Assembly (NCBI GenBank): GCA_013362835.1
Contig: JABFVJ010000345.1
Coordinates: forward strand, 1 to 7,246
From: Nonomuraea sp.
GTDB taxonomy: Bacteria > Actinomycetota > Actinomycetes > Streptosporangiales > Streptosporangiaceae
Reading direction: 5' to 3'
DNA: 7,246 bases
Shown here: positions 461-1,970 of the stretch, in pieces
Numbering within the stretch: position 1 is the first letter of the stretch
How the letters are laid out: every line of letters starts with the position of its first letter
Position numbers and translations under genes: made by a program
The notes under the pieces: model-generated
What the model saw: only the letters and a program-made list of their open reading frames with translations
Told to the model about the DNA's origin: nothing
Databases searched by the model: none

Positions 461-1717
461 CTACGGCGACAGGCGGTGCAGGTCGCGGGGGAAGGCCGTG
501 GTCTGGCGGATGTTGGCGGCGCCGGTCAGCCGCGCCGTCCACCGCTCCAGGCCCAGCGCGAACCCGCCGTGCGGCGGCATCCCGTACTGGAACGCCTGCA
601 GATACCCCTCGTACGGCTCCACGTCCCCGTCCAGGGCCTGGACGTAGTCCTCGTACCGGTGCAGCCGCTGGCCGCCGGTCACCAGCTCCAGCCCCCTGAA
701 CAGCAGGTCGAAGCCGTTGGAGTAGCCCGGCCTGGCCGGGTCGGGATGGGTGTAGAAGGGCCGCTTCGACATCGGGTAGCCGGTGACGAACAGGAACTCC
801 GAGCCGTGCTCGCGCAGCGCCCAGTCCGACAGCCACCGTTCCTGGGCCGGTGACAGGTCGGGCTCGTCCTCGCCGGTCAGCCGCTGGGCCTCGGTGAAGT
901 GCACGGCCGGGATCTCGGCCGGCACGCCGGGCAGCACCGCGCCGAGCGCCTCGACGGCCGGGGCGGCGCGGCGGCGTACGGACTCGACCATGCCCGCCAC
1001 GGCCTCGCGCAGCACCGCCATCACGTCCCGGTGGTCGGCGACGAATCCGAGCTCGGCGTCGAGGCTGGTGTACTGGGCCAGGTGCCGTACGGTGTCGTGC
1101 GGCTCGGCGCGGAAGACCGGCCCGACCTCGTAGACCCGCTCGAACACCCCGACCATCGTCTGCTTGTAGAACTGCGGCGACTGGGCGAGGTAGGCCGGGC
1201 GGCCGAAGTAGTCGATGCCGAAGACGTTGGCGCCCGACTCGGTCGCCGAGGCGACGATCTTCGGTGTGTGGATCTCGGTGAACCCGAGCCCGTCGAGCGC
1301 CTCGCGGAACCCGGCCACGCTCGCCGCCGAGATCTCCAGCGGCGCCCGCAGCAGCGGATGGCGCAGCGCGACGGGCGCGTGGTCGAGGATCGTCGGCAGC
1401 GTCGCCGCGACGACCGGACGGTAGAGGTCGAACGGCGGCGCCTTGGCGGGCTCGGCCAGGACCTCGATCTCCGGCTCCGTCAGCTCGACCCCGCCCGGCG
1501 CCTGCCGGGACGGGGTCACGGTGCCGGTGACCCGGACGACGCTCTCCTCGCCGGGCAGCCCGGCGGCCGCGCCGACCACCTGGGCGAGCCCGGAGCGGTC
1601 GCGTACGACGAGGAAGGACACGGATTTCAGGTGCCGGCGGCGATGGACCCAACCGGCGATCGTCACTCGTCGGCCGGCGTGCTCAGCGAGCTCCGCCGAC
1701 AGGACACGAGAGATCAT
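461..1717 (-). CDS. aspS: Archaeal/AspRS2-type aspartyl-tRNA synthetase, predicted non-discriminating (Asp-tRNA(Asp)/Asp-tRNA(Asn))
   Basis: This class II synthetase of 418 residues ligates aspartate to tRNA in the cytoplasm. The length fits the compact archaeal/AspRS2 form; canonical bacterial AspRS is near 590 and carries an extra GAD domain absent here. Residues 1-95 form the OB-fold anticodon-binding domain. Motif 1 is near FTEIHTPKI (146-154), motif 2 runs from FRAEPHDTVRHL (202-213), and motif 3 is GGFALGLER (384-392) with its ATP-binding Arg. QSPQFYKQ (179-186) and the C-terminal FPRDLHRLSP are also typical. His25 (in AGWVH) and Pro74 (in QAPGG) fall where discriminating archaeal enzymes have Trp and Lys; His and Pro are linked with charging tRNA-Asn too. 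If so, Asp-tRNA(Asn) would be amidated by GatCAB. The start is ATG at 1717 with AGAGGAG seven bases upstream (1723-1729), inside the T-box switch. Whether a second, bacterial-type AspRS exists elsewhere cannot be seen. Confidence 0.93.
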   Translation of the reverse strand: MISRVLSAELAEHAGRRVTIAGWVHRRRHLKSVSFLVVRDRSGLAQVVGAAAGLPGEESVVRVTGTVTPSRQAPGGVELTEPEIEVLAEPAKAPPFDLYRPVVAATLPTILDHAPVALRHPLLRAPLEISAASVAGFREALDGLGFTEIHTPKIVASATESGANVFGIDYFGRPAYLAQSPQFYKQTMVGVFERVYEVGPVFRAEPHDTVRHLAQYTSLDAELGFVADHRDVMAVLREAVAGMVESVRRRAAPAVEALGAVLPGVPAEIPAVHFTEAQRLTGEDEPDLSPAQERWLSDWALREHGSEFLFVTGYPMSKRPFYTHPDPARPGYSNGFDLLFRGLELVTGGQRLHRYEDYVQALDGDVEPYEGYLQAFQYGMPPHGGFALGLERWTARLTGAANIRQTTAFPRDLHRLSP

Positions 1718-1970
1718 TACAGCTCCTCTGCAGGAAATGCATGACCCCTTGGGAGTGCGGGGGAGAAGGGAGCTCCCGGTGCCACCGCACTTTCACCGCC
1801 CGCGAGGGCGGCCTCCACGACCCGATGACGGGGGTCAGACCGGCGGGGCATTTCCTCCCCGCACTCGGGAGTGTCTTCAGCAGCGGGCACGGGGCCGCCT
1901 TCGCAGCTTCCGGCGGCTCTCTGGACCCGTGGGGACCGCTGGCTACTCGTCTCCGTCCACGCGTTGCCGT
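1718..1970 (-). promoter_or_regulatory. T-box riboswitch leader, Asp specifier, probably translational
   Basis: The leader of the AspRS gene shows the T-box elements in order. Stem I opens with GGAG (1951-1954) pairing CUCC (1868-1871). The specifier loop has GAGUAG (1943-1948) on its 5' side and GAA-GAC-A on its 3' side, with GAC (Asp) at 1873-1875. Above it AGCGG pairs CCGCU and CACGGG pairs CCCGUG. Distal AGAGAG and a UGCGAA loop close stem I. Hairpins follow at 1843-1862 (GCGGGG/CCCCGC), 1819-1836 and 1796-1811 (CCGCCC/GGGCGG, stem III). The antisequestrator is GUGCGG (1785-1790), bulge UGGCACC (1778-1784), GGGAG (1773-1777), loop, then CUCCC and CCGCAC (1755-1765). UGGC would pair a GCCA acceptor end, fitting the G discriminator of tRNA-Asp. 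No U-run terminator is seen. Instead AGCUCC (1769-1774) can pair the Shine-Dalgarno GGAGCU (1721-1726), so control is probably at translation. The 5' limit is approximate. Confidence 0.92.

Follow-up and report, generated by a model that had tools for sequence, protein, structure and literature searches.

The papers cited here by PMC number are represented by the portions of their text that were available. Translational T-boxes have been described for the ileS genes of actinobacteria (PMC1262725), and short forms of Stem I are already known among actinobacterial T-boxes (PMC7583486). An earlier note on the DNA studied here had stated that T-boxes of actinobacteria are described mainly for ileS; this fits the actinomycete literature (PMC1262725, PMC7583486), but other actinobacterial T-boxes exist, and 56 of 396 genomes sampled across the phylum carry T-boxes above the Rfam cut-off. 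These genomes often hold several each, and nearly all of them are 0.8-2.8 Mb in size.

T-boxes with an Asp specifier in TBDB belong mainly to Firmicutes and are mostly transcription attenuators, and the aspS T-box of C. acetobutylicum has an Asn specifier. Asp is listed among the TBDB specifier families, and the translational T-box model of that resource was run on Actinobacteria genomes (PMC7778990), so that single aspS2 entries may be listed there. The T-box of C. acetobutylicum is borne by one of three aspS genes (PMC2494555). In B. cereus, lysK combines a T-box with a second LysRS, a class I enzyme of archaeal origin, which occurs in four species and always alongside a LysRS without a T-box (PMC2916919). 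Extra AspRS genes have been noted in Actinomycetales, and the available portion of that text makes no mention of their control (PMC4206432).

The window analysed here is the whole stretch of 7,246 nucleotides from Nonomuraea sp. Its minus strand carries a leader that is best read, with a probability of about 0.85, as an Asp T-box with a full-length Stem I exerting translational control over a second, archaeal-type AspRS gene, aspS2. No printed description of an actinomycete aspS2 T-box was found in a full-text literature search, outside the scope of which lay the TBDB tables and Sherwood et al. 2015, reportedly a study of actinobacterial T-boxes.

The leader, its gene and related leaders

The covariance search proposed in the earlier note was carried out with cmscan on the window against 4227 Rfam families. 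RF00230 was matched at 1968-1754 on the minus strand over the complete model (1-219), with 62.3 bits and E 4.4e-12, though below its gathering score of 93 bits. The sole other match at E <= 1 was a trypanosome snoRNA model (E 0.068) away from the leader. RF00230 also gave matches at E <= 0.01 in all 12 related whole genomes, two in nine of them and one in three, and none of these 21 reached the gathering score. The aspS2 leader, identified by a Stem I model (R1), is among the matches in 11 of the 12 genomes; that of G007 (Yinghuangia) was not picked up by RF00230. The curated Rfam threshold overlooks all aspS2 leaders in the 12 genomes and at a set of nine loci. The features of the window leader and its gene are the following.

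2000-1995 and 1978-1973, minus: promoter-like site, AGGACA and TATGAT with a 16 nt spacer (consensus match only)
1868..1954, minus: Stem I of the full-length type, GGAG/CUCC base (Rfam match and covariation over 46 of 81 leaders)
1948-1943, minus: sequence motif GAGUAG in Stem I
1922-1917, minus: sequence motif AGAGAG, a bulge in Stem I
1905-1900, minus: sequence motif UGCGAA in the distal loop of Stem I
1873..1875, minus: specifier codon GAC (Asp), with GAA before (1878-1876) and A after (1872)
1843..1862, minus: Stem II, GCGGGG (1862-1857) with CCCCGC (1848-1843)
1819..1842, minus: Stem IIA/B region, CGG (1842-1840) with CCG (1831-1829), IIA taken from the Rfam match
1836-1832 and 1823-1819, minus: possible pseudoknot in Stem IIA/B, GACCC with GGGUC, a pairing read from the letters
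1795..1812, minus: Stem III hairpin (Rfam match and sequence)
1754..1791, minus: antisequestrator, AGUGCGG (1791-1785)/CCGCACU (1760-1754) and GGGAG (1777-1773)/CUCCC (1765-1761)
1778..1784, minus: T-box bulge UGGCACC, whose C could pair with the discriminator G73 of tRNA-Asp
461..1717, minus: aspS2, archaeal-type aspartyl-tRNA synthetase, 418 aa (HMM match and structure match)

The minus strand had been described beforehand as carrying an Asp T-box at 1718-1970, and each landmark listed for it was found at its expected place. The promoter-like site has 9 of 12 consensus matches, against a shuffle mean of 0.0, and four bases separate its end at 1973 from the start of the T-box match.

The target gene had been taken for a compact archaeal-type AspRS2, and this identification was upheld by a score of 525.8 bits against NF003483 (cut-off 353), a family that carries the name aspartate--tRNA(Asn) ligase. 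The protein stayed below the cut-off of TIGR00458 (aspS_nondisc, the non-discriminating AspRS), with 332 against 368.4 bits. Its nearest solved structure is T. thermophilus AspRS2 (1n9w), matched over the full length with 408 bits, and an identical protein is on record from a Nonomuraea MAG. Upstream of aspS2, the window contains der and cmk.

A single scan across species genomes of bacteria and archaea gave 413 relatives, and the best 80 of these were taken as related loci. They span Nonomuraea, Sphaerisporangium, Microbispora, Micromonospora, Kribbella, Amycolatopsis, Yinghuangia, Mangrovactinospora and Actinopolymorpha, together with one record labelled Streptomyces. In these best 80 and the window, hereafter the 81 leaders, GAAGAC stands at the specifier position without any variation, and the UGGNACC bulge is likewise present in all, with C in 80 and U in one (L041). 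UGGU replaces UGGC in two aspS2 leaders, L041 and L206, both of which retain GAC; the tRNA-Asp discriminator belonging to these two was not found.

Stem I could be aligned for covariation in 46 of the 81 leaders. Of the cells in this alignment, 92.4% are paired, and 15 of 19 pairs have changed on both sides. The covariation of 0.471 was reached by none of 500 shuffles (mean 0.191, sd 0.012), the pair types were equalled in one of the 500, and controls with slid partners gave 0.065-0.145. The alignment of homologous leaders that had been suggested as a check thus returned the conserved GAC, the conserved UGGN bulge and covariation in Stem I. Stem II and Stem IIA/B are absent from 14 of the 81 leaders, namely those of the Kribbella type and one from Nonomuraea, and both are present in the window. 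Some known T-boxes likewise do without Stem II and IIA/B. At the level of sequence, the element, its specifier and the identity of its target gene can be regarded as established.

Mode of control

No terminator-like site was found in positions 1650-2100 of the window, and the T run between T-box and start codon never exceeds three in the 81 leaders (best 80 of 413 relatives and the window). Translation control is therefore likely. In this mode, uncharged tRNA-Asp would base-pair at two sites: its anticodon GUC would read the specifier GAC, and the UGGC bulge would take up its GCCA end. The pairing would stabilise the antisequestrator and favour translation of aspS2; charged tRNA-Asp would not stabilise it, and the SD would remain hidden. 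What is said here of tRNA binding, of the sensing of charging and of the switch direction is transferred from the T-box family, and by this analogy the leader most likely raises AspRS2 when tRNA-Asp is uncharged. Two further features bear on the hiding of the SD.

1710..1748, minus: predicted hairpin hiding SD and start codon, GGGGUCAU (1748-1741) with AUGAUCUC (1717-1710), from the fold model
1728-1723, minus: SD GAGGAG of aspS2, within the predicted hairpin

Accessibility of the SD was calculated as means with the antisequestrator formed and blocked, leaving aside three of the 81 leaders that have no recognised SD. The values fall from 0.38 to 0.00 in Kribbella (12 leaders), from 0.54 to 0.31 in Micromonospora (21), from 0.39 to 0.11 in Actinopolymorpha (one) and from 0.23 to 0.02 in leaders with a short Stem I (19 of 20). 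In Kribbella and the short-stem leaders, an anti-SD sequence, CACCUCC, shares bases with the 3' strand of the antisequestrator; in the short-stem leaders, forming the antisequestrator does not make the start codon itself more accessible (0.60 formed, 0.67 blocked). No change was predicted in Amycolatopsis (0.81 formed, 0.80 blocked; four leaders), Yinghuangia (0.54 in both; one leader) or Mangrovactinospora (0.80 in both; one leader), and the small change in Sphaerisporangium (0.27 and 0.36; three leaders) runs in the wrong direction. The 35 Nonomuraea leaders, window included, show no predicted switch, with 0.26 formed and 0.27 blocked, and for that of N. soli (L033) the predicted change is opposite to the expected one (0.03 and 0.20). 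Sequestration of the SD is thus supported by the models for Kribbella and Nocardioides and in part for Micromonospora, and not for the lineage of the window itself.

In the window, the hairpin over SD and start codon is predicted both with and without the antisequestrator. Across the 35 Nonomuraea leaders, it consists of GGGRUCA with UGAUCUC and is compatible with the antisequestrator; at 1748-1710 of the window and the matching site of 33 Nonomuraea loci, the upstream GGGRUCA pairs with the start region AUGAUCUC. The opening codons ATG ATC TCT CGT are identical at the DNA level in all 34 Nonomuraea leaders listed, and such invariance would suit a paired role. The fold model shows no route by which tRNA could open the Nonomuraea hairpin and does not support the SD-hiding step in this lineage, where that step would be expected from the T-box scheme. 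An alternative Nonomuraea switch, pairing UGACCCC of Stem IIB with a downstream GGGGUCA, was dropped since leaders with GGGAUCA keep UGACCCC and no covariation is seen. When the antisequestrator is blocked in the fold model, GCAC of its 3' strand pairs with GUGU in codons 4-5; this pairing was left as weak, being broken in two of 34 leaders (L002 and L032).

These results lend some weight to a real Asp T-box that acts in Nonomuraea by transcription attenuation instead of translation, for the SD hairpin and the antisequestrator can form side by side, no SD switch is predicted in the 35 leaders, and a long conserved hairpin lies across the start codon. However, that hairpin takes in the start codon itself, terminator-like sites and longer T runs are missing as described above, and a mutually exclusive SD sequestrator is predicted in related leaders. 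Attenuation is accordingly considered unlikely, and translational control of aspS2 is kept as the preferred reading.

tRNA specificity

Genes for tRNA-Asp were recognised with a tRNA query search in 10 of the 12 related genomes. All have the anticodon GUC and the discriminator G, and this G73 complements the C of UGGC. In G007 and G008, tRNA-Asp was not seen, the scanned loci giving genes for tRNA-Glu, -Gln, -Gly, -Cys or -Val.

Run on 394 genomes of the class as well, the R1 model of Stem I matched in 30 of them. Fourteen aspS leaders and two other matches score at least 68 bits, and the remaining 14 lie at 40-52 bits. All of these weaker matches carry GAAG-AUC-A and UGGUACC before IleRS-like ORFs, one of which was verified by HMM. 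Leaders with AUC, UGGU and IleRS thus stand against leaders with GAC, UGGC and AspRS, so that codon, bulge base and enzyme vary together within the class. The agreement of specifier, acceptor-pairing base and enzyme claimed in the earlier note was borne out by GAC, by UGGC with G73 in all ten tRNA-Asp genes found, and by AspRS2 of NF003483. Its reading of the leader as an Asp T-box ahead of a gene for an archaeal-type AspRS gains from the concurrence of these data with the Rfam match, the conservation of GAC and UGGC and the covariation of Stem I.

The name of NF003483 would also suit a leader that senses tRNA-Asn, or both tRNA-Asn and tRNA-Asp, and no AsnRS scores above cut-off in any of the 12 related genomes. 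T-boxes with two codons reportedly exist in Clostridium and are said to be treated by Saad 2013. Against this, the 81 leaders (best 80 of 413 relatives and the window) and 20 short ones all have GAC as specifier, never AAC, and GAC pairs fully with GUC, unlike the Asn anticodon GUU. A role for tRNA-Asn is therefore very improbable, and tRNA-Asp is retained as the ligand of the proposed T-box.

Second copies, reduced forms and known systems

The second-copy status of the window aspS2, which the letters alone could not reveal to the earlier note, rests on the related genomes, in all 12 of which one bacterial-type AspRS above cut-off occurs beside AspRS2. Over the class, an NF003483 enzyme is above cut-off in 36 of 394 genomes, 22 with a bacterial AspRS as well and 14 without. 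A T-box precedes the archaeal-type AspRS in each of the 22, with a long Stem I and GAAGAC in 15 and a short Stem I in seven. The long ones include L207, which starts at a contig edge, and L247, with UGGCACA and an interrupted gene; GAAGAC and UGGCACC are both present in L209, L248 and L249. In contrast, neither a motif search nor Rfam at E <= 5 revealed a T-box before the archaeal-type AspRS of the 14 genomes without a bacterial AspRS above cut-off (L223, L225-L231 and L241-L246). This contrast of 22/22 with 0/14 is partly confounded by ancestry, which could account for much of it, since the eight sole-type proteins placed in a quick-method tree form one clade far from AspRS2 (support 98, or 100 without L221); it is not taken as proof of function.

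One leader, L221 from a Streptomyces genome (G553) with an additional bacterial AspRS, bears on this point. It has a T-box with GAAGAC and UGGCACC (R1 87.8 bits), and its AspRS shares 53-54% identity with two proteins of the sole type, against 41% with the window AspRS2. The enzyme groups with the archaeal-type subfamily that serves elsewhere in the class as the only AspRS and has no T-box there. As a single case judged by sequence comparison, L221 speaks for a link between the T-box and second-copy status.

At L247 (genome G412), about 3.3 kb interrupts aspS2 after some 100 codons, and the T-box ahead reads UGGCACA; the interruption suggests that AspRS2 may be lost.

A short hairpin, still presenting GAC, is all that is left of Stem I in 21 leaders. 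Seven are class leaders and 14 come from 20 leaders of the order of G665, the remaining six of which are long. AspRS2 is found in 68 of 235 genomes of that order, and UGGCACC or UGGCACA in all 52 leaders seen of the 68. When 20 short hairpins were aligned, UGAC was invariant, the 4-bp stem varied by compensatory changes and 95% of cells were paired. Covariation was 0.436 against 0.236 in shuffles, none of 500 reaching it; with only four pairs, changes on both sides were reached by 44 and pair types by 498 of the 500 shuffles. Rfam finds none of the seven short class leaders at E <= 5. Among individual cases, L292 has the short hairpin and a chance GAAGAC elsewhere, L208 reads GGAG-CAGACA-CUCC and keeps Stem II, and the protein encoded at the short-stem L218 matches that of Nocardioides mangrovicus at every residue.

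On the quick-method tree, the short Stem I requires two changes, each of which is forced by starred branches; the absence of Stem II requires five, three to four of them forced. Stem II and Stem IIA/B thus appear to have been lost in several separate changes. A full-length Stem I without Stem II and IIA/B is seen in Kribbella (e.g., L048, L053 and L062), L033 (Nonomuraea soli), L247 and L300. L269 and L232 lack Stem II as judged from spacing.

The two high-scoring R1 matches that are not aspS leaders (77.7 and 76.8 bits) come from genomes that lack AspRS2 and have the specifier GAA-UCC-A, a Ser codon. The corresponding pattern matched eight times over 246 Streptomyces genomes, comprising four leaders with UGGCACC before a SerRS ORF, one relic and three chance matches (L233, L234 and L238), which were dropped as Ser T-boxes.

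L236, L237, L239 and L240 (genomes G854, G811, G824 and G595): Ser T-box leaders with UCC and UGGCACC, immediately ahead of a second SerRS gene

Each of these four genomes has two SerRS above cut-off, and the lower-scoring one sits directly behind the T-box. The SerRS protein encoded at L236 also occurs unchanged in S. regalis, and the upper portion of Stem I is missing in L237. In alignments to each Ser leader, the best four Asp leaders score 78.6-120 and the best two of six Ile leaders tried 24-44. tRNA-Ser has the discriminator G73. The simplest reading of these sequences is a change of specifier from Asp to Ser, in which UGGC would serve both tRNAs. The relic lies in G140, a genome with one SerRS only, where at L186 1501-1780 the Stem I and the start of Stem II of a Ser T-box fuse into the final codons of a SerRS2-like gene. 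That the window leader might be such a relic, with landmarks kept and regulation lost, is brought to mind by L186 and by the interrupted gene of L247, but drift would break the specifier, bulge and paired columns that are kept across Nonomuraea and other families, which renders it highly unlikely.

A broader proposal can be put forward tentatively, and as a whole it stays short of an even chance. One actinomycete T-box lineage may act as an inducible guard of spare synthetases, under which the second AspRS would stay low until failure or inhibition of the housekeeping enzyme. This lineage would sit on two archaeal-type AspRS subfamilies where these are second copies, would have been retargeted from GAC to UCC and a second SerRS in Streptomyces, and would have had its Stem I collapse at least twice with Asp specificity kept; the Nonomuraea branch would add a hairpin concealing the SD along with the start codon. 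The proposal was rated higher because of L221.

The conserved Asp T-box on a second AspRS is real; the kind of T-box was already known, and the side findings widen it. If the readings above are true, T-box control in actinomycetes is not peculiar to ileS and extends to second-copy Asp and Ser synthetases, and spare synthetases would be inducible by uncharged tRNA. This would offer a direct way to ask whether the duplicates serve as starvation backup or help cells tolerate synthetase inhibitors. Natural material for testing the choice of tRNA by T-boxes would be available in the leaders that range from full-length to minimal Stem I at constant specificity, and in the apparent switch from Asp to Ser.

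Among known systems, as far as the available portions of the papers describe them, the actinobacterial ileS T-box occurs in the same class of genomes and has in common the lack of a terminator, the specifier loop and the UGGN bulge, as well as SD sequestration where this is predicted for the leaders studied here. Unlike that element, with AUC and UGGU, the window leader has GAC and UGGC and targets a second-copy AspRS2. With the Asp T-boxes of TBDB it shares the Asp specifier, and it differs in its actinomycete host and in that no terminator was found. T. thermophilus AspRS2 (1n9w, 3kfu), the nearest solved structure, is also a second, archaeal-type AspRS. The lysK T-box of B. cereus resembles the window locus in placing an archaeal-origin second synthetase under a T-box; it has a Lys specifier, acts by antitermination and belongs to Firmicutes, with four species, whereas the Asp form occurs in 22 of 394 genomes of the class.
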